A DNA stretch of 33,958 bases from a candidate division NC10 bacterium CSP1-5. Lineage in GTDB: Bacteria > Methylomirabilota > Methylomirabilia > Methylomirabilales > CSP1-5. Below, in pieces: positions 4,031 to 31,969 of the stretch. Below the pieces are notes generated by a model. The model saw only the letters and a list, made by a program, of their open reading frames with translations. It did no database searches and was not told the DNA's origin. Both the position numbers and the translations under genes were made by a program. The stretch covers positions 1 through 33,958 of the forward strand of contig LDXR01000023.1 of assembly GCA_001443495.1 (NCBI GenBank). Reading direction: 5' to 3'. The number at the start of each line of letters is the position of its first letter. Within the stretch, counting starts at the first letter, position 1.

Positions 4031-4500
4031 GGGCAGCTTACCTTGCATGCCCGAACTCGCCCGGACGGGGATGCCACCACGGCATAGGTGCCGGCACTGT
4101 TTGTCATGGTGATCGTGCTCCCGGACGCTTCTCCTTTAAGATCATAGGTTACCTTGTCCGCCTCCGAGGTCAAGGTCAGCCCATCGGGGAGATCGGCCCG
4201 CCTCACATCCACGAACCACACTGCGGGAGGACCCGCGGAAACCTTTCGCTGGAGCAGGTAGCCTCCCGCCGGGACCGCAGCGTCACAATTCGCGAAGCAG
4301 ATGCGGTGGTCGAGCTGCAGCGAGACGGCCTTCTGGCGAGCCAGGCGGAGGTCTCCCGCCAGATTCCAGGCCGCTCCGCGCAGCCGGTACGCCTCGAGGG
4401 TTCGGAAAACCGACGGCATAACCATCCCCACCAGGACCACAAGGGCGACCCCCACCATGAAGAGCTCCATGAGGCTGAACCCCTTGTCGTCTCCCACCAT
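4027..4500 (-). CDS. GspH/FimT-like prepilin
   Basis: Predicted 157 residues. MVGDDKG followed by FSLMELFMVG is a short prepilin leader and cleavage site, followed by a hydrophobic helix and the GspH/FimT signature in which LRGAAWNLAGDLRLARQKAV leads into the globular domain. A pair of cysteines (CFANC) lies mid-protein and another (CKVSC) at the C-terminus, probably a disulphide as in FimU/GspH pseudopilins. ATG 4500 is preceded by AGGAG seven bases upstream; this ribosome-binding site overlaps the stop of the phosphodiesterase gene (TAG then GAG), so the two are almost certainly co-transcribed. Longer forms starting upstream read into that gene and are rejected. Confidence 0.88.
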   Translation of the reverse strand: MVGDDKGFSLMELFMVGVALVVLVGMVMPSVFRTLEAYRLRGAAWNLAGDLRLARQKAVSLQLDHRICFANCDAAVPAGGYLLQRKVSAGPPAVWFVDVRRADLPDGLTLTSEADKVTYDLKGEASGSTITMTNSAGTYAVVASPSGRVRACKVSCP

Positions 4501-4510
4501 CGGGGCGCTC

Positions 4511-5281
4511 CTACGCCACCGGTGCAAACCGATACTCCTTTCCCTGCTCCAGGATCTGACACCCTGGGACATCTTTCTTAAGCTCGTCAATGATCTCAGC
4601 GGTATACTGGGGCTTCAAGTGATACGCATACACGGTCGCCTTCACGCGCGCCTTGGCCAGTTCCGCCTTGAGGGCTTGCGGGGTCAGATGTCCGCTCACG
4701 TCTGCGAGTCGTTGGAGCCGATTGGGGAAGGTGGTCCCGATCATGACTGCCCGGAGGTTCGAGATGTCCTGCGCCGCCTTCCAGACTGCCTCCGTCGGGC
4801 CCGTATCTCCCAGGTGAAGCAGGGTTCCGAAATCGCCCTCGACGAAATAGCCAACACTGATCACCGAATGGGACAAGCGAATCGGGGTGACCCGGAAATG
4901 GCAGAGGGGAGTCGGCCTCCCCTCGGGGAGGGGGCGAAAATCGAGGATGGGCATTCGTGAATTCGGGATCTCGGTGAAGTTGGGCCACAAGACGTTATTC
5001 AGCAGAGAGCCCTTCAGGGCCTCGAGCACCGGCTCGATACTGTGGACGGTGATGGGCCGGTCCCGCTGACCAAAGATGTTATCCGCCAGGTGGGCCAGCC
5101 CGCGGACGTGGTCCAGGTGCGTATGTGTCAGAAGGACCGCCTCGATCTGCGCCTGCTCAGGGATCTCCAGGACACCGGTGACGGACCCCGCGTCGATCAG
5201 CAGGGTCTCATCCAGGAGGAAGCTGGAGAGGTGGTATCGCGGCGCCTCACCGCCAAAGCATCCGAGCACCCGGTACCTCAT
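4511..5281 (-). CDS. class II 3',5'-cyclic-nucleotide phosphodiesterase-like metallo-beta-lactamase-fold protein
   Basis: Predicted 256 residues. The zinc site THTHLDHVRGL (His53, His55, Asp57, His58) matches the H-x-H-L-D-H core of class II cyclic-nucleotide phosphodiesterases. Later motifs fit: a VLWPNFTEIP segment, LHLGDTGPTEAVW with the bridging Asp, and VSGHLTP with a metal-binding His. Members hydrolyse cAMP or cGMP in the cytoplasm or periplasm; I see no signal peptide, so cytoplasmic action is inferred. ATG 5281 has GGAGG six to seven bases upstream and overlaps the HD-GYP stop as ATGA. The substrate is not proved, and other MBL-fold hydrolases remain possible. The position between a c-di-GMP-type hydrolase and pilin genes suggests a role in nucleotide signalling for surface behaviour. 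Confidence 0.78.
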   Translation of the reverse strand: MRYRVLGCFGGEAPRYHLSSFLLDETLLIDAGSVTGVLEIPEQAQIEAVLLTHTHLDHVRGLAHLADNIFGQRDRPITVHSIEPVLEALKGSLLNNVLWPNFTEIPNSRMPILDFRPLPEGRPTPLCHFRVTPIRLSHSVISVGYFVEGDFGTLLHLGDTGPTEAVWKAAQDISNLRAVMIGTTFPNRLQRLADVSGHLTPQALKAELAKARVKATVYAYHLKPQYTAEIIDELKKDVPGCQILEQGKEYRFAPVA

Positions 5282-7077
5282 GCCCGACCTCCGCTGGACG
5301 CCGACGGTTGAGACACCGCTCCCCTTCTCTGTGGAGCCCTCTTTTCCAGATGCTCCAACGCCTGTGAGCTGATTCGTCCACCCCGAAAGGCCCGCAGGAA
5401 CGCCTCCGCCACCTTGGGGTCGAATTGCGACCCGGCACACCGTTCGATCTCAGTGGCCGCCGCTTCGTCGCCCAACCGCGGACGGTAAGGGCGGTCAGTG
5501 GTCATGGCATCAAAGGCGTCGGCGACGGCGATCACGCGTGACGCCAGCGGAATCTCGTTCCCCTTCAACCCCTGCGGATACCCCTGACCATCGCAGCGCT
5601 CCTGATGATGCCGAACCGCCGGGATCACCGCCTCGAGCTGCTTGATCGGCGCGAGGATTTCCGCCCCGAGCTCCGGATGGAGACGGATGTGCGCCAGCTC
5701 TTCGGGGGTCAGGGGGCCGTGCTTGAGGAGGACCCCGTCCCGAATTCCGATCTTTCCCACATCGTGCAAGATCGCGGCCAGCTCGAGCGTCTCCTTCTCC
5801 TCAGGCTTCAGGCCCAGTTCTTCCCCGATGGCCAGCGAGATATCCACGACGCGCCGCACGTGGCCGCCCGTGTACGGGTCTCGCTTCTCGATCGCCTCGG
5901 CCAATGTCGCCGCCGTACTGAGGAAGGTCTCCTTCACTTCCTCGTAGAGTCGCGCGTTCTCAATCGCGATCCCCACCTGACGGGCCAACGATTCGAACAG
6001 GCGCTGATCCTCCCCATCGAAGGGACGATCGCTCCGTCGGTTGATGGCCTGGAGTACCCCGATGATCCGGTCCCGGCTCTTCACGGCAACACAGATCATG
6101 TTTCGGGTGACGAAATGGGTTCGGACGTCGACCCGCCGTGAGAAGCGGGGATCGCGCCGCACATCGCTCACGACGGTGGATTGCCCGGTCCTGGCCACCC
6201 ATCCCGCGACGCCCTCCCCGACCTTGAGCCGGACCTCCTTCACCTCTCTCCCGCGCTCCCCTAATGCCACCTCAAAGACCAGCTCGTCGCACGCCTCGTT
6301 CAGGAGGAGGAGAGACCCGACCTCACATTCCATGAGGCGCGTGGCGGCCTCCACCGCCCGCCTGAGCACCTCCGAGATCTGCAGGGTCGAGTTGAGAATG
6401 GCGCTCAGCTCCATCAAGCTTGAGCACTGTCCCACCCGTTTTGCCGCCTCGGAGTAGAGGCGAGCGTTCTCCACCGCCATCCCCAGCTGATGTCCGATGG
6501 TCGCAACCAGGTCGGCATCGTCCCGATGAAACGAAGGAGAGGGCGGAAGGCGGAGTAGCTCGAGCACTCCGGCGAGGTGGCCGGAGACCCGCAAGGGGAC
6601 CGTAAGAAGCGAGGCCCGCCCCCCTGTGAATCGGGGAAGGGCCCAGCCGGGTGGCGCCGCCCCGACCGTCCGAAGACGCGCGCCATCGCCCCCCGTGACG
6701 ATCTCCCGGCGATGCGCCCCCTTGAGCGAGGCAGGTGCCAGCGAGATCGGAGATCCATTCTTTCCGCGCTGCATCCCGAAAAGCACCCGCTTCCTGTGCG
6801 GATCGATCTGCAAGAGGACGCCGTAATCAGCGGCCAGGCCCTGCAGGATGATCTTCAGGAGTGCTTGAAAGAGCGGTTCGAGCTGCAACGTGGTTGTCGA
6901 AGCCCGCCGGATGGCCTGGAGAAGCCTGACCCGGCGGTCCTGCGTCTTGAGCTCTTTCTCCAGTCCGGCAATCCGCGCCTGCTGACGGTCGAGCTGGCGT
7001 TGGTAAGAGGTGAGGAGCCGCCGCACCCCGACTGGGGACTTTTGCCCGCTTCGGCGTGCCTGTTGATGTCTGCCCAC
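5278..7077 (-). CDS. GAF-GAF-HD-GYP protein, probable cyclic-di-GMP phosphodiesterase
   Basis: Predicted 599 residues. A short coiled coil (about 22-58) leads to two GAF domains (about 62-205 and 220-378), then an HD-GYP domain (about 385-565). The catalytic set is visible: His406, HD at 438-439, Lys442, His467, the His490-His491 pair and the GYP triplet at 499-501 within DGQGYP. Such enzymes cleave c-di-GMP to pGpG or GMP and often cGAMP; the GAF domains presumably sense a small ligand or redox state. There is no membrane segment, so it should be cytosolic. The GTG start at 7077 has AGGAGG just upstream and lies eight bases after the trpA stop; the stop overlaps the next gene (ATGA). HD-GYP proteins control type IV pilus motility in other bacteria, in keeping with the pilin genes downstream. 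Confidence 0.9.
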   Translation of the reverse strand: MGRHQQARRSGQKSPVGVRRLLTSYQRQLDRQQARIAGLEKELKTQDRRVRLLQAIRRASTTTLQLEPLFQALLKIILQGLAADYGVLLQIDPHRKRVLFGMQRGKNGSPISLAPASLKGAHRREIVTGGDGARLRTVGAAPPGWALPRFTGGRASLLTVPLRVSGHLAGVLELLRLPPSPSFHRDDADLVATIGHQLGMAVENARLYSEAAKRVGQCSSLMELSAILNSTLQISEVLRRAVEAATRLMECEVGSLLLLNEACDELVFEVALGERGREVKEVRLKVGEGVAGWVARTGQSTVVSDVRRDPRFSRRVDVRTHFVTRNMICVAVKSRDRIIGVLQAINRRSDRPFDGEDQRLFESLARQVGIAIENARLYEEVKETFLSTAATLAEAIEKRDPYTGGHVRRVVDISLAIGEELGLKPEEKETLELAAILHDVGKIGIRDGVLLKHGPLTPEELAHIRLHPELGAEILAPIKQLEAVIPAVRHHQERCDGQGYPQGLKGNEIPLASRVIAVADAFDAMTTDRPYRPRLGDEAAATEIERCAGSQFDPKVAEAFLRAFRGGRISSQALEHLEKRAPQRRGAVSQPSASSGGRA

Positions 7078-19801: not shown

Positions 19802-19915
19802 CTAAAGTAAACGCACAAAGTGCGTTTACTTTGGAGCAATGGAGCAGTAGAACAATAGAATGATTTTGCAGGCGAAATGCTCCATTGCGGTCCAATGTTC
19901 TATTGCTCGATTGTC
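19802..19915 (+). repeat. intergenic repeat element, copy A
   Basis: The element starts with a perfect hairpin: 13-base arms 19804-19816 and 19820-19832 around an AAA loop. Next come octamers of consensus GCAATAGA/GCAATGGA (about 19835-19862), a spacer containing GGCGAAATGC, then the same octamers in inverted orientation to 19915. It is homologous over its whole length to copy B at 31848-31969, which lies in the opposite orientation; by eye most positions agree. It sits between the His-rich protein gene and the PEGA gene. Confidence 0.85.
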
Positions 19916-23469: not shown

Positions 23470-24699
23470 TTAGAAGCCGAGAGACCGCCGGCGCTGCTGT
23501 GGGAAGGGCCCGCTCCCCTGCTGGGGGCGCCGGGATCCATCCCGTGCGCCCAATCCGACCACGACCGACTGCCCCTCTGTGACGTCCCCCTCGAGGACCT
23601 CGGTGAAGTATTCGTCGCTCAATCCGAGCTTGACCGCCACCCCGCTGAGCCGCCCCTCATCGAGGATCCAGATCTGCGATGGCCCGCGAGCCTTTTCCTG
23701 GGCCGAGAGGGGCTCCCCGTTAGGAGAGGGGGGCTTGAACCGCAGCGCCGCGTTGGGAATCTTGAGGACGTCCGCCCGCCTGTCCACGAGGATCTTCACG
23801 TTCGCGGTCAACCCCGGCTTGAGTTTCAAATCGGGATTGACCACCGTGACCACCACGTCATAGGTCACCACATTTTGCTGCACGATCGGGGCCTGGCGGA
23901 TCTGGACCACCTGACCCTTAAACATCTCCCCCGGAAAAGCGTCCACGGTAAAGCTCGCCTGCTGGCCCACCTGAATCCGGCTGATGTCCGCCTCGTCCAC
24001 GTTGGTATCCACCTGCATCTTGGTGAGGTCCTCGGCGATCAAGAAGAGCGTCGGGGCCTGGAGCGACGCGGCCACCGTCTGCCCGACATCGACGTTCCTC
24101 GCAATCACCACGCCATTGACCGGAGCGTAAATATAGCTGCGGTCGAGGTCCACCTGAGCCGCTCGAAGGGCGGCGAGCGCCGCCTCGACTCGGGCGGCCG
24201 CCGAGTCGTAGCTGGCCTGGGCCGAGTCCCGCTCCTCCTGGGAGATCCCCCCCTCCTGAAAGAGGGCAGCGCGGCTGTCCCGTTTGATCTTGGCATCCTT
24301 GACAGTCACCCTGGCATTGTCCACGTCGGCCTTCGCTTGGTTGACCTTGGCCTCGAAAGTATCCGGGTCGATCCGAGCGATGAGCTGCCCCTTTTCCACC
24401 CGAGAGTTGAAGTCGGCGTACAGATTCTTGATCCTTCCAGAGATTTGGCTCCCCACCTGGACGGTGATCACGGCGTTCAGCGTTCCGCTGGCCGAGATCG
24501 TCGCGACGATCTCCCCCCGCTCGACCGGCGCGGTCCGGTACTTGGGGCTCTTTTCTGAGCGGAGCCAGGCCACGCCGCCGGCCCCGATGAAAAGGGCGAG
24601 GAGGACAAGGATGCCGATGATCCTCGCCTTGGGCCGTCCCATAATGGTCATCACCGCCTCTCGGATGCTCGGACTCTTATCGGACCCTCGAGCTTTCAC
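23470..24699 (-). CDS. MacA-like periplasmic adaptor (membrane fusion protein)
   Basis: Predicted 409 residues. A cytoplasmic N-tail and one transmembrane helix (about 27-46) precede a lipoyl/barrel-sandwich half ([30 protein letters not shown]), a helical hairpin of two long Ala-rich helices (about 110-170), the second lipoyl half ([21 protein letters not shown]), beta-barrel ([24 protein letters not shown]) and membrane-proximal domains. This is the MacA pattern, linking MacB to TolC. I chose GTG 24699 since GGAGG lies six bases upstream; ATG 24651 with GAGG is a shorter alternative. The C-terminus is Gly/Gln/Arg-rich. Confidence 0.92.
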
Positions 24700-24720
24700 A
24701 CCCTCCCTCCGGTACCTAGC

Positions 24721-24734
24721 TTCCTGTGCAGGAA
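24721..24734. promoter_or_regulatory. small dyad upstream of the adaptor gene
   Basis: TTCCTG and CAGGAA flank two bases in the 48-base gap between the Spy/CnrX-like gene and the adaptor gene. It could be an operator or a small mRNA hairpin; nothing else supports a function. Confidence 0.25.
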
Positions 24735-24747
24735 TCAGTGCAAGAGC

Positions 24748-25134
24748 CTACCGTTCGCCCCGCTGCTCTCTCTCCGCGTCCCACGCCTTGAGGAAGGCCT
24801 CAAACCGGGGCTGCTGGTCTGGGGTCAGCATAGCCCGGATCCGTCCGCGGGCCCGCTCCTTGATCTCGCTCACCTGGGGCGCGATCGTCTTCCTGACCTC
24901 CGCGAACTCACCCCGGGTATCGTCCAGGATCCGATCAAGCTCCTTCCGCTGATCAGAGGTCAGTTGCACGTCCCGGGTCAGCAAGGAGACATACCGCTCC
25001 CGATCGAAACGCCCCCCTCGTCCTTCGGCCGATGCTCCATACGACCGCTCATACAGGCGGAGCCCCATAGCCCCGGCGGCCAGTCCCAGCGTAAAGACCA
25101 ACGTGTAGACGATGACGTGGACTCGTCCCCTCAT
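24748..25134 (-). CDS. Spy/CpxP/CnrX-like periplasmic sensor or chaperone
   Basis: Predicted 128 residues. One N-terminal membrane helix (about 7-26) anchors or exports the protein; the rest is an all-helical domain with the LTSDQRKELDRIL and LTPDQQPRFEAFLKAW repeats (LTxxQ) of the Spy/CpxP/heavy-metal-resistance family. In such systems the protein senses metal ions or misfolded protein and acts on the anti-sigma factor. ATG 25134 overlaps the anti-sigma stop (ATGA). The likely complex is sensor, anti-sigma and sigma, as in CnrX-CnrY-CnrH; the CnrX metal ligands are not evident to me, so protein-damage sensing is equally possible. Confidence 0.82.
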   Translation of the reverse strand: MRGRVHVIVYTLVFTLGLAAGAMGLRLYERSYGASAEGRGGRFDRERYVSLLTRDVQLTSDQRKELDRILDDTRGEFAEVRKTIAPQVSEIKERARGRIRAMLTPDQQPRFEAFLKAWDAEREQRGER

Positions 25135-25586
25135 GGCGTCCGTTCTTCCGCTTCGAGGATCGATGCCAGGATCTGATCATGGGTCGGCCGGGGAATCCCC
25201 AGGAACGAGGAGGTCTCGGAGCCACCCGCCGGAGAGTCCAGGAAGGACAGGACCGGCGAGGGAGGAGGCGGGGAGAGGAGATAAGCCCCGCTCGCCAGCA
25301 TCAACGTCAGGCTGGCCAGGGTCGGGACGAGGAGCCTGATCCCGAATCGCGAGGCGACGGGTGGAGCTGCGGCCTCACCCAGCCGGGCTCGAAGCCGAGC
25401 CATGAAATAGGGGGATGGCTCGTCGTCAGCCGCCAACGCCTGGAGCAGGAGTCGGGTCAGTCGCCGGGTCCGGGCGACCGCCGCGCAGTGCGGACACGCC
25501 CGGAGATGTAGGGCAAGGGCGTCGGCCTCAGCAGATGCAAGGGCCCTCCGCCGGTCGAGCGTCTCTTTCGCCTCGCGGCACTTCAT
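25131..25586 (-). CDS. zinc-finger anti-sigma factor, membrane anchored
   Basis: Predicted 151 residues. The N-terminal cytoplasmic domain MKCREAKETLDRRRALASAEADALALHLRAC-type layout carries the HxxxCxxC zinc motif (His-Leu-Arg-Ala-Cys-Pro-His-Cys). One transmembrane helix (about 84-105) is followed by a proline-rich periplasmic tail. This is a classic ZAS-domain anti-sigma factor that holds its ECF sigma at the membrane until a signal triggers release. ATG 25586 has GGAGG five bases upstream and overlaps the sigma stop as ATGA; the longer upstream reading lies inside the sigma gene and is not used. Confidence 0.87.
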   Translation of the reverse strand: MKCREAKETLDRRRALASAEADALALHLRACPHCAAVARTRRLTRLLLQALAADDEPSPYFMARLRARLGEAAAPPVASRFGIRLLVPTLASLTLMLASGAYLLSPPPPSPVLSFLDSPAGGSETSSFLGIPRPTHDQILASILEAEERTP

Positions 25587-26191
25587 CCTTCCCTCCCGCC
25601 CCGATGACTCTCTCCGCCAAGGAGCGTGCGCAAAGCGCGCCGGGCCCGGAACAGGCGGAGACGCACTGCCATCTCTGAGCATCCGAGGATTCTCGCCACT
25701 TCCCTCGTTTCCATTCCCTCTCGCTCCTTCAAGAGGAGCACAGCCCGATCCTGCGGGGTGAGCTGGCCCAACAGCTTTTCCGCCAGGTCCCGGAGGAACA
25801 GGCGATCGATCTCACCAGGGGCGCTTTCATCCCGCGCCAGCCTATCGAGCACCGTCGTCTCGTCCGAACCCAGCTCGGAAAAAGATCGCTCCTGCCGCCA
25901 GCGAAGACGGCGGAGGTGATCGATGCACAGATTGACCGCGATCCGGGCCAGCCACGAGCCCACAGACGAACCGTGCTGGACCTGTCCCAGCGATCGATAG
26001 GCCCGGAGGAATGCCTCCTGCCCAATATCTTCCACCTCGGCACCCGGTACCATCCCCCGAATAACGCGAAACACCAACCGCCTATACCGGTGAACCAGCA
26101 CTTCAAAGGCCTGCTCCTCTCCTGCCAGGGTCCGACGGACCAGATCTCCATCCGAAGCCTGGTCTCCAAGATCGGGTTGCCCCTCACCCAT
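25583..26191 (-). CDS. ECF (RpoE-type) RNA polymerase sigma factor
   Basis: Predicted 202 residues. Sigma region 2 spans about 25-98, with the EDIGQEAFLRAYRSL block and the DNA-melting/-10 segment SWLARIAVNLCIDHLRR. Region 4 spans about 140-188 as a helix-turn-helix (ETREVARILGCSEMAVRLRLFRARRAL) that reads the -35 box. It directs RNA polymerase to an envelope-stress or metal regulon and is held by the anti-sigma factor encoded next. ATG 26191 has AAGG about eight bases upstream. An ECF-type promoter just before it (TGAAAC-N17-CGTC) suggests autoregulation. The downstream MacAB/Slp genes are likely targets. Confidence 0.93.
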   Translation of the reverse strand: MGEGQPDLGDQASDGDLVRRTLAGEEQAFEVLVHRYRRLVFRVIRGMVPGAEVEDIGQEAFLRAYRSLGQVQHGSSVGSWLARIAVNLCIDHLRRLRWRQERSFSELGSDETTVLDRLARDESAPGEIDRLFLRDLAEKLLGQLTPQDRAVLLLKEREGMETREVARILGCSEMAVRLRLFRARRALRTLLGGESHRGGREG

Positions 26192-28645: not shown

Positions 28646-28731
28646 GGAGCAATAAAGCAATGGAACAATAGACCGCATTCTCGCAATGGTCTTAGACCCT
28701 ATTGTCCAATGCTCCATTGCTCGAATGCTCT
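28646..28731 (+). repeat. intergenic repeat element, copy C (diverged, no AAAGTAAACG hairpin)
   Basis: Left-arm octamers related to GCAATGGA/ACAATAGA (about 28649-28672), a short spacer, and the same octamers inverted (about 28698-28728). The body resembles copies A and B, but the 13-bp cap hairpin is absent and the tmRNA terminator directly follows. Confidence 0.7.
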
Positions 28732-28773: not shown

Positions 28774-29126
28774 TGGTGGAGGCGGCGGGAATTGAACCCG
28801 CGTCCGAGAACGAGCCCATAGAAGCCTCTACATGCTTATCCTGTGTTTTGATCTCGTCGGTGAAAACCCCCACAGGCAGGGTTCATTCACCGACCAGCCC
28901 TTTTGTTCTCGCCCCCCTCCCCCGGGCCGGAGAAGGGAGGCCAGCTCACCTGTATGACGCCTTACCCTACCCAGTAAGCGAGGCCAGGGAGGCGTGGCTG
29001 CTAGTTAGGCAGCCAGTGCCAATTCAGCGTTGGCAGTTGTGTTTTTCCCACCGGTTTTACGAGGGTGATGGGACCTCGGCATGCCACCTCTACCAACCGC
29101 GTCCCCGTCGAAACCGTTTCGCCCCC
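28774..29126 (-). ncRNA. ssrA: transfer-messenger RNA (tmRNA)
   Basis: About 353 bases. The 5' end GGGGGCGAAACGGTTTCGACGG and 3' end with TTCAATTCCCGCC and an encoded CCA can pair as the alanine-type acceptor stem (GGGGGCG with CGCCTCC); the GGACGCGGGTTCAA region is the conserved T-arm. The tag reading frame (29034-29005) runs from GCC and encodes ANAELALAA then TAA, a typical ALAA-ending degradation tag; the exact resume codon is inferred. Several hairpins in the middle match pseudoknot regions. tmRNA with SmpB frees stalled ribosomes and tags the nascent chain. smpB lies about 100 bases upstream on the same strand. Confidence 0.96.
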
Positions 29127-29153: not shown

Positions 29154-29233
29154 GGTGATTGGTGTTTAGTGATTAGTGATTGATGAAAACGCCCTTTCCC
29201 CCACCAACCACTAGTCACCATCCACTAGCCACT
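29154..29233. repeat. inverted arms of degenerate heptamers between tmRNA and smpB
   Basis: The left arm (29154-29186) has four to five heptamers of consensus AGTGATT/GGTGATT, and the right arm (29201-29233) has the same type inverted (AGTGGAT, AGTGGCT on the minus strand). A short spacer with a run of C separates the arms. The smpB stop TAG is part of a right-arm unit. Confidence 0.75.
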
Positions 29234-29686
29234 TCGTGCCTTCTTTAAAGCGTCGGCGACTTCCCGTTCCTGGACCCGTCGCTTGACATCCTCGCGCCTG
29301 TCGTACTGCTTTTTCCCCCGCGCCAGCGCCAACTCCACCTTCACCCGGCCATTCTTGAGGTAGAGGCTCAACGGCACAAGGGTGAGTCCCTTCTCCTGGA
29401 CTTTCCCGATGAGGCCCCGTATCTCATGCCGATGCAACAGCAGCTTCCTGGGGCGCAGCGGGTCATGATTGAGCCGATTGGCCGGGGCGTACGGACTCAC
29501 GTGACAATTGAGCAGGTAGACCCCGTCCCGCTCCAGAGCCGCATAGCTGTCCTTGAGATTCGCGCGCCCCTCCCTGAGCGACTTCACCTCGCTGCCGGTC
29601 AATGCGATGCCGGCTTCGAAGACCTCTTCGATGTGGTAGTCGTAGCGCGCCTTCCGATTCGTGGCGAGCACCCTGCCCTGCGCCAT
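29225..29686 (-). CDS. smpB: SsrA-binding protein SmpB
   Basis: Predicted 153 residues, normal length. The N-terminus VLATNRKARYDYHIEEVFEAGIALTGSEVKSLREGRANLKDSYA is characteristic in composition and motif order; further on, HVSPYAPANRLNHDPLRPRKLLLHR and the C-terminal tail KKQYDRREDVKRR complete the family signature. SmpB binds tmRNA and mimics the anticodon stem in the stalled ribosome. ATG 29686 has AAGGAGGG directly upstream. It lies upstream of ssrA, and the stop codon falls in a heptamer repeat. Confidence 0.98.
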   Translation of the reverse strand: MAQGRVLATNRKARYDYHIEEVFEAGIALTGSEVKSLREGRANLKDSYAALERDGVYLLNCHVSPYAPANRLNHDPLRPRKLLLHRHEIRGLIGKVQEKGLTLVPLSLYLKNGRVKVELALARGKKQYDRREDVKRRVQEREVADALKKARSG

Positions 29687-29721: not shown

Positions 29722-30681
29722 TTAAGGATACGCACTTTTGCCTCTTTTTTCAAGTTCTTCTCCCGGTTTTCGAGGCGCGACACTCCCCCCACTCCATAGC
29801 ACCCAGAGACCCGGCAGGCCCCGGATCGGTACCCCGCGCGTGATCAGGCCTTCGGCAGCGAGGACGTCGAGCGCCCTTTCCACCTCGGGGAGGGACACGT
29901 CAAAGAGCCGAGTCATGATCCGCTCCTGACTCGCGATGGCATTCCTGAGGTGCTGCGTCACCACTTGGAGGACTGCATCGGCCCGCGGAAGCCTTTCTCC
30001 CATCATGATCTGCTCGGGCAGCCAGTTCTCCAGCAGATCCCAGCGGTAGCAGAAGGAGGGCTCGTAGATCTCTTCGGTCTTGACCACCCACAGCTTCCGT
30101 TGCAGCTCGGTCATGGCGCGCTCGAATTCCCGCGTCCGGTCCGATGCCTGGAGTCCCGTCCGGCGGCGAAGCGCGGGTGTGTCCGTGGGGCTCGTCTCTA
30201 TCAAGGCATCCATGATGCGAAGGGCGGTCCGGCCGAGACGCCCGTCGCGATAGTCCGCCAGGGAGTCGCCGCTCCGCCTTCCCTCACGGATCAGGGCCAC
30301 GAAGGCGGGAAGGAGCTCGAGCGAGACGAGCGTCGGCCTTCCCTTGAGGAGCTTGCCATAATAGACGAGGCGCTTGGCCGGGAGGATGTCCTTCAGCTCC
30401 CAGGTGAGGAGCACTCCCGGATCATGGTGGGTATGCTTGGGCCAGCGGGGATGCCGGCGGCCAGAGACGGCTACCCAGAGGCAAGGGGCGGAGAGGCCAA
30501 AGGTGCTGAAGGTGAAGGAGTAGCCGACCTGACGGACGAAACGAAGGGCATCCCGTTCGGTCCGCACTCTGAGGTGCGGAAGCCGATGAAACGTCCGATC
30601 CCTGAGGGCCTCCAGGATCGCCCGTGTGAGGGGGAATCGACTCGGGTGGGCGGTCCTGCGGTTAGCGGCTGCGGAGGGCAT
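29722..30681 (-). CDS. putative winged-helix (AlkZ/YcaQ-related) protein
   Basis: Predicted 319 residues. I do not recognise it with certainty. The N-half has FVRQVGYSFTFSTFG, PCLWVAVSGRRHPRWPKHTHHDP, LTWELKDILPAKRLVYYGKLLKGRP and LVSLELLPAFVAL; the C-half, FERAMTELQRKLWVVKTEEIYEP and VERALDVLAAEGLITRGVPI, suggests winged-helix modules as in AlkZ/YcaQ-type DNA glycosylases. I cannot find the QxD or QxQ catalytic motif of YcaQ, so glycosylase activity is not supported. I chose ATG 30681, overlapping the DGQHR gene by 20 bases; the longer reading runs in that gene. Overlap implies joint expression with the DGQHR protein. Confidence 0.6.
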   Translation of the reverse strand: MPSAAANRRTAHPSRFPLTRAILEALRDRTFHRLPHLRVRTERDALRFVRQVGYSFTFSTFGLSAPCLWVAVSGRRHPRWPKHTHHDPGVLLTWELKDILPAKRLVYYGKLLKGRPTLVSLELLPAFVALIREGRRSGDSLADYRDGRLGRTALRIMDALIETSPTDTPALRRRTGLQASDRTREFERAMTELQRKLWVVKTEEIYEPSFCYRWDLLENWLPEQIMMGERLPRADAVLQVVTQHLRNAIASQERIMTRLFDVSLPEVERALDVLAAEGLITRGVPIRGLPGLWVLWSGGSVAPRKPGEELEKRGKSAYP

Positions 30682-31786
30682 CCTTGAGCTCGCGGACGAG
30701 GATCTCGACCGTGCCTCGCGTCCCCCCGGCCTGCTTCTGCCGCCAGGCCCCTTCGGTCTCGAAGCGGGCGTCGCCGATGCGGGCACTCCACGGGGCGACC
30801 GCCTCCCGGATGCCAGCGGCGTCAAAGGGGTCTTTCTTGCTCTCCCGGGCGGCCACCATCACATCGGGCGAGACGCGGATAAACGCCCTGAGCGCCGTCC
30901 CCGTCTTGATGCTGTATTTCCGGCCTGCCCAGGCCTTGGGAAAGGCCGCCGCGATCGCCTTGAAATAGTTCAGGAAGAATCGGCGTGCCCCCTCGCGCAG
31001 CTCCTTGGCCCGCCCCTCTCCGCCGATCTTCCGGACCGTCTCAAGGAGCTCTACCATCTCCTCGGCCAGGGGCGCCTGCGAGACCTTCCCCCGCCCCACC
31101 CCGAGGATGCGGATCTCTCCCGCCAGTGGAGATGACTCTGTCTCGTTCAGCGCCCGGATCACGTCGTGGGCCAGGGCCTGGTTCTCGTTCGTGTACAGCC
31201 GTCGTCCGGCCAGGCTGATCAGGTGAGATGGATTCAGGCGGGTATGCTTGGCGTTGATGGTGACAAAGAGCTCCACGACCTGTCGGTCATCCAGGTTATC
31301 AAAGACGACGGCCGGAACCTCCATCCCCTTGAGCTCGTCTGCCGCGGCATGCAGCGCCAACAGCCGATGCTGGCCATCCAGGGCCCGCAGGATGCCTGGC
31401 TCTTCCGGGATCTGCAGGACCCCCACACTTCGACCGGCTCCCCCGGGCGCAAACTGCAGTCGCCGCTCGGCAATGATGATCACCGCCCCGGGGATCGCCG
31501 GGAGATTTCCCCCCTCCTGGCACTCCCGGTAATACTTCAGGAGCTCCTCGATCTTCCGACGGATCAGGGGCCGCTGAAAGGCGGTCTCGCCCTGGGCGAT
31601 CCGCTTCTCCAGCAGCTCCCAATTAATGCGCGAGGGCCGGCGGCGCCTCTTGCCGGGGGGTTCCTCGGCCGAGGCGTACCCCAGGACTTCGAACCTCACC
31701 AGCCGGTCAATGTCCGCCGCCGAGAAAGAGGCCTGATAGAATTCGACGCCGAACTGCTTGACCTTGTGGGCGGGCACCGTAATCAT
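30662..31786 (-). CDS. DGQHR-motif (DndB-like) protein
   Basis: Predicted 374 residues. The diagnostic motif ALDGQHRLLAL is at 135-145 (DGQHR at 137-141), followed by VPAVVFDNLDDRQVVELFVTINAKHTRLNPSHL, where FxxIN and the NAKHTRLN segment recur in the family. Members include DndB, a regulator in phosphorothioate DNA modification, and proteins in 7-deazaguanine DNA systems; many are orphan. Basic stretch EEPPGKRRRRPS (41-52) may contact nucleic acid. ATG 31786 has GGAGG four to five bases upstream. No dndA, C, D, E or dpd genes are in view, so the specific role is unknown. Its partner is the overlapping winged-helix gene. Confidence 0.8.
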   Translation of the reverse strand: MITVPAHKVKQFGVEFYQASFSAADIDRLVRFEVLGYASAEEPPGKRRRRPSRINWELLEKRIAQGETAFQRPLIRRKIEELLKYYRECQEGGNLPAIPGAVIIIAERRLQFAPGGAGRSVGVLQIPEEPGILRALDGQHRLLALHAAADELKGMEVPAVVFDNLDDRQVVELFVTINAKHTRLNPSHLISLAGRRLYTNENQALAHDVIRALNETESSPLAGEIRILGVGRGKVSQAPLAEEMVELLETVRKIGGEGRAKELREGARRFFLNYFKAIAAAFPKAWAGRKYSIKTGTALRAFIRVSPDVMVAARESKKDPFDAAGIREAVAPWSARIGDARFETEGAWRQKQAGGTRGTVEILVRELKDALRSR

Positions 31787-31847: not shown

Positions 31848-31969
31848 GACAATTGAGCAATAGAACATTAGACCGCAATGGGGCATTTCGCCTCCAGAAT
31901 CGCCCTCTTGTTCTATTGCTCTATTGCTCCATTGCTCCAAAGTAAACGCGCTTTGCGCGTTTACTTTAG
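31848..31969 (-). repeat. intergenic repeat element, copy B
   Basis: In the opposite orientation to copy A. The cap hairpin has 13-base arms 31939-31951 and 31955-31967 with a TTT loop. Octamers GCAATAGA (minus strand) run through about 31906-31937, then a spacer with GGCGAAATGC, then inverted octamers to 31848. CTAAAG at the hairpin end supplies the TAA stop of gcvPB (31968-31966). Confidence 0.87.

Follow-up and report, generated by a model that had tools for sequence, protein, structure and literature searches.

The stretch of DNA analysed here (the window; 33,958 nucleotides, contig LDXR01000023.1 of the candidate division NC10 bacterium CSP1-5) encodes, on its reverse strand, a DGQHR-domain protein and an AlkZ-related protein in immediate succession (Table 1). 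The ORF coordinates confirmed the 20-base overlap between the two genes given in the initial annotation, which had also correctly placed them between a repeat element and smpB-ssrA; the gene found upstream of the DGQHR gene, past the palindromic repeat, is gcvPB. The DGQHR ORF has an ATG start and a GGAGG-like ribosome-binding site, and the GC contents at the three codon positions are coding-like for both the DGQHR gene (69/45/83%) and the AlkZ-related gene (67/49/76%). In the sister genome (G009, locus L083), taking the start chosen here, the two genes lie a few bp apart, the 20-bp overlap not being conserved.

The repeat is genuine and dispersed, its half-site (GAGCAATRGAACAWTAGA) giving 47 matches across the window genome versus none for a reversed control pattern. 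Two copies (~28647-28730 and 31850-31937) bracket the block formed by the DGQHR and AlkZ-related genes, smpB and ssrA; however, given a third copy at 19834-19908, this bracketing needs no special explanation. Elsewhere in the window (23470-26191, reverse strand), a row of genes encodes an ECF sigma factor, a possible zinc-finger protein, an LTXXQ/heavy-metal-resistance-like protein and one efflux protein of HlyD type, possibly forming a metal-stress operon.

Table 1. Features of the DGQHR locus, in coordinates of the window
Feature	Coordinates	Strand	Evidence and remarks
DGQHR-domain protein, 374 aa	30662..31786	-	TIGR03187 and Pfam DndB above cut-off; orthologues with the same start; structural model and fold matches
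QR pair, residues 71-72 (Q71 R72)	31571..31576	-	Invariant in 42 orthologues; motif named in PMC4619093
DGQHR motif, residues 137-141 (D137-R141)	31364..31378	-	Invariant in 42 orthologues; positions derived from a start at 31786
FxxxN motif (FVTIN), residues 174-178, inside FVTINAKHTRLNPSH	31253..31267	-	F174 and N178 invariant in 42 orthologues; motif named in PMC4619093
AlkZ-related protein (Pfam AlkZ-rel PF24741), 319 aa	29722..30681	-	Profile match; catalytic QxD position replaced
Overlap of both coding regions, 20 bp	30662..30681	-	ORF coordinates
smpB, downstream neighbour	29225..29686	-	Profile match
ssrA (tmRNA)	28774..29126	-	
Palindromic REP-like repeat in the gcvPB-DGQHR intergenic region	31850..31940 (palindrome also given as 31850-31937)	.	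One of many dispersed copies

Family membership and distribution of the DGQHR protein

The DGQHR family is known mostly from DNA-modification systems, and has been named and interpreted through the phosphorothioate and deazaguanine modifications of DNA. The window protein exceeded the cut-offs of both the TIGR03187 DGQHR profile (122.6 bits, cut-off 58.9 (58.85)), which was matched by all 42 aligned orthologues, and Pfam DndB PF14072 (49.9 bits, cut-off 29.1), in agreement with its earlier description as an orphan, DndB-like DGQHR protein. It reached the equivalog cut-off of neither DpdB (48 versus 300 bits) nor DGQHR_dnd_1 (44 versus 450 bits). The earlier statement that dnd and dpd genes are lacking was upheld across the window genome for the two marker genes searched, DndC (the sole marker for dnd) and DpdA, neither of which was matched there, and a single DGQHR match was found in this genome.

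Within the phylum, DndC scored above its cut-off in one of 95 genomes (G079) and DpdA in none. The dnd region of G079 spans positions 101402-111307 of contig 39 and contains DGQHR proteins of its own (101402-102217 and 108890-109723) beside DndC at 110012, whilst the orphan DGQHR gene of the same genome sits apart on contig 2, so that this genome serves as an internal control.

Orthologues of the orphan gene were found in 66 of the 95 genomes, usually in single copy; a search for the DGQHR family as a whole counted 68 genomes, the difference being due to other DGQHR proteins in G024 and G026. According to record titles and NCBI lineages, orthologues occur in Methylomirabilota/Rokubacteria, Syntrophaceae, other 'Deltaproteobacteria', Binatota, Acidobacteriota and Myxococcota, with full-length identities to the window protein of 47-97% and near-equal lengths and starts. 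Seventeen of 199 Acidobacteriota genomes carry the orthologue at 560-607 bits, the next-best DGQHR protein scoring 161 bits, and this gap indicates that the orphan orthologues form a group distinct from other DGQHR proteins. Four Acidobacteriota genomes (G148, G159, G207 and G124) carry a second DGQHR group, which scores 150-161 bits and stands apart from the orphan one. The distribution in Rokubacteria is core-like and not patchy; the gene is largely missing from family f6 of the same phylum, and hence is not essential across the phylum. In a quick tree, the window protein grouped with its own genus and the Syntrophaceae proteins fell among those of Methylomirabilota with moderate support, a position from which some horizontal transfer of the gene appears possible.

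The genomic surroundings of the orthologues differ between lineages, and no neighbour cluster common to different lineages was found; a conserved operon partner, whether for the DGQHR or the AlkZ-related gene, was consequently rejected. In one lineage (Binatota/'Deltaproteobacteria', loci L133-L138) the orthologue lies between rnc and der, a conserved housekeeping neighbourhood whose domains were checked in L135, and neighbours at other loci include genes for a lipid A acyltransferase, a rubredoxin reductase or FAD oxidoreductases. Searches of plasmids, phages and viral contigs brought up no orthologue: plasmid and phage domain matches were at most 29% identical among the matches listed, and the viral-contig scans, in which patterns were matched, confirmed no relative. 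The possibility that the gene is prophage or plasmid cargo was rejected on these grounds. Judged from these comparisons of sequence, the lone DGQHR gene is a deeply conserved and widespread chromosomal gene.

It could be argued that the protein is a remnant of, or a regulator left behind by, a lost dnd or dpd system. DndB acts as a regulator in Salmonella, and the Pfam DndB membership of the window protein, along with its weak similarity to DpdB, DndB and DGQHR_dnd_1, is consistent with such an origin. However, the extent of full-length identity, the invariant motifs and the membership of one discrete group argue against decay, as does the scarcity of DndC and DpdA in the phylum, and we rejected this explanation as very improbable owing to that conservation and to the marker genes not being found. 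Considering that the group is usually single-copy, and that modification genes were detected in the phylum in one dnd-bearing genome only, the modification label misleads for this branch; the orphan DGQHR gene is instead a chromosomal gene whose role can be tested directly.

The AlkZ-related neighbour is dispensable

The neighbouring protein had been described as AlkZ-like with no visible QxD/QxQ motif, and both parts of this description proved sound. An HMM search placed it well above the cut-off of Pfam AlkZ-rel PF24741 (98.5 versus 26.5 bits); nine of 19 family members also match Pfam AlkZ-like PF06224, and over its last ~90 residues the family profile aligns with TfuAlkX (9ZD6), with an E-value of 3e-4 and agreeing registers. 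The 9ZD6 entry is the crosslink glycosylase TfuAlkX (PMC13303869). When the 19 members were set by eye beside Rokubacterial YcaQ-like proteins, neither Q nor D was present at the site of the Q-phi-D or (Q/H)-phi-Q motif, both catalytic positions being replaced (FVEDVGGLQLDS in the YcaQ-like proteins versus FVEDVGFCSTFY in the AlkZ-related proteins). The profile alignment of the two families supports the C-terminal half, whilst at the QxD site, in the N-terminal part, the register was set by eye, with a global profile alignment putting this stretch in the same region. A structure prediction for the protein, made from two sequences, did not succeed (pLDDT 35). The family thus resembles the AlkZ/YcaQ (AlkX) glycosylases in its profile matches, but differs in the replaced QxD motif and in a conserved pattern of its own (HxHHD...WxLKDxLP...YYGK); the neighbour is a separate winged-helix protein, probably DNA-binding, that does not carry the known glycosylase motif.

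The initial annotation had further suggested that the two genes form a small module for DNA-modification sensing, repair or defence. This was not supported by a neighbourhood survey, which showed that the pair is not conserved together: adjacency, with an overlap of at most 20 bp or a gap of a few bp, occurs in two species of this one genus, and outside the genus the two genes were not neighbours at any locus examined. The families also occur separately within the phylum, and in other lineages an AlkZ-related protein of any kind was present in three of 28 genomes that carry the DGQHR orthologue. In G012, a sister genome, the DGQHR protein is 97% identical to that of the window, and its AlkZ-related neighbour has been reduced by internal deletion to a remnant of 145 codons or fewer. 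The AlkZ-related neighbour is dispensable. The G012 locus (L051) also holds, at ~4300-6032, an AbiEi/AbiEii toxin-antitoxin pair between the remnant and smpB.

Such a module could nonetheless be maintained in genomes where both genes are present but not linked, with a DGQHR NTPase loading or regulating the AlkZ-related protein on damaged DNA in repair or modification sensing. Besides the adjacency in two species, co-presence in the phylum appears to favour this: the AlkZ-related gene was found in 67 of the 95 genomes, with both genes present in 59, neither in 21 and one only in 15 (AlkZ-related in 8, DGQHR in 7), a raw association with a Fisher p of 4e-9 that carries no correction for phylogeny. 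Within lineages, however, the association gave p = 0.07 in family f7 and p = 1.0 in families f2-f4, indicating that the raw value is carried by the lineages themselves. Moreover, three genomes of genus f1 (G010, G011 and G013; completeness 85-96%) that contribute double absences also have no smpB match, so that these triple absences probably reflect an assembly gap at the repeat-bracketed region and not true loss; in another genome (G008), smpB is missing and both genes are present. Together with the low co-occurrence in other lineages and the eroded neighbour in G012, this renders a repair or sensing module improbable, and the pair as a module was rejected given its one-genus adjacency, the separability of the families and the erosion in G012. 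A defence role is likewise unlikely, since the annotated neighbours are housekeeping genes and plasmids, phages and viral contigs yielded no orthologue. It would be a mistake to annotate the two genes as a defence module linked to modification.

Predicted fold, proposed role and relation to known systems

An AlphaFold model of the DGQHR protein (pLDDT 77, pTM 0.70) has an alpha/beta N-terminal part and is all-helical from approximately residue 237. The best match of this model in the PDB was a ParB N-domain, at an E-value (0.055) that is not significant alone, and the ParB-like PadC was also listed; no PDB match reached E 0.001 and TM-scores were low. Among the PDB searches of this analysis, a weak match to NifE also appeared. 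In a library of viral structures, the model matched an occlusion protein (E 1.5e-4) and, more weakly, DndB-like proteins and GmrSD N-terminal domains. A sequence-profile comparison of DGQHR with ParB was not significant (E 0.22; an unrelated control gave 0.30). Motifs common to GmrS and DGQHR have been published, together with the prediction of a ParB/Srx fold for both (PMC4619093), and DpdB is described as a ParB-like ATPase (PMC12839542). The motifs and the predicted fold of the window protein point to a ParB/sulfiredoxin-like nucleotide-binding domain.

The analysis shows the family membership, the orthology and the solitary context of the gene, the lack of DndC and of any DpdA above cut-off, and that the neighbour can be lost; what we infer of nucleotide use, DNA association and biological role can be outlined as follows. 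The N-terminal ~230 residues would constitute a ParB/sulfiredoxin-like domain bearing the QR, DGQHR and FxxxN motifs, through which the protein probably binds and hydrolyses nucleotide, by analogy with DpdB and GmrS. Contacts with DNA or with a partner, or else dimerization, would fall to the helical C-terminal part (residues ~237-372). Overall, the protein may regulate or maintain the host chromosome as a DNA-associated factor that is switched by nucleotide, operating without phosphorothioate or deazaguanine modification. The AlkZ-related gene is not an obligate partner, although it is probably co-transcribed with the DGQHR gene in this genus.

The shared GmrS motifs, and the viral-library matches to GmrSD N-terminal domains, also suggest a different activity: the protein could be a restriction-like or nicking enzyme that belongs to the ParB/Srx-GmrS type, acts alone and is directed against foreign modified DNA. 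We regard this as unlikely, for neither an HNH nor any other nuclease partner is conserved nearby, the neighbours are housekeeping genes wherever they are annotated, orthologues were not seen on plasmids or phages, and the distribution in Rokubacteria is core-like, not patchy. We lean towards a gene that stands alone on the chromosome, is a member of one discrete orthologue group and is predicted to encode an NTP-dependent, DNA-associated regulator that is independent of dnd and dpd. A more far-reaching proposal, which we put forward tentatively and with some doubt, is that the orphan group represents a new NTP-switch, chromosomal and of ParB/Srx class, which deep-branching bacteria would use to maintain the chromosome or for RNA/DNA housekeeping; if true, the DGQHR fold would be used outside DNA modification as well, in a role unrelated to it.

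Several known systems resemble the window protein in part. It shares the DGQHR domain with DndB and DGQHR_dnd_1 and exceeds the Pfam DndB cut-off, but it falls far below the DGQHR_dnd_1 equivalog cut-off, has no dnd cluster around its gene and comes from a genome without a DndC match; in the dnd-bearing genome G079, moreover, separate DGQHR proteins lie in the dnd region and the orphan lies elsewhere. DpdB, the described ParB-like ATPase, aligns with its DGQHR region over residues 68-288, yet the score is far under the 300-bit cut-off and the phylum has no DpdA above cut-off. With the GmrSD N-terminal domain (DUF262) it has in common the QR, DGQxR and FxxxN motifs and the predicted ParB/Srx fold, although it reaches 17 bits against Pfam GmrSD_N (cut-off 33.2) and does not carry the HNH GmrD domain. 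As for ParB, Noc and PadC, the profile match of DGQHR is not significant, the predicted structure gave fold matches of the strengths stated above, and the VPAVVF...INAKHTRLNPSH segment of the window protein resembles IPAII...NIQREDLNPIE of ParB.
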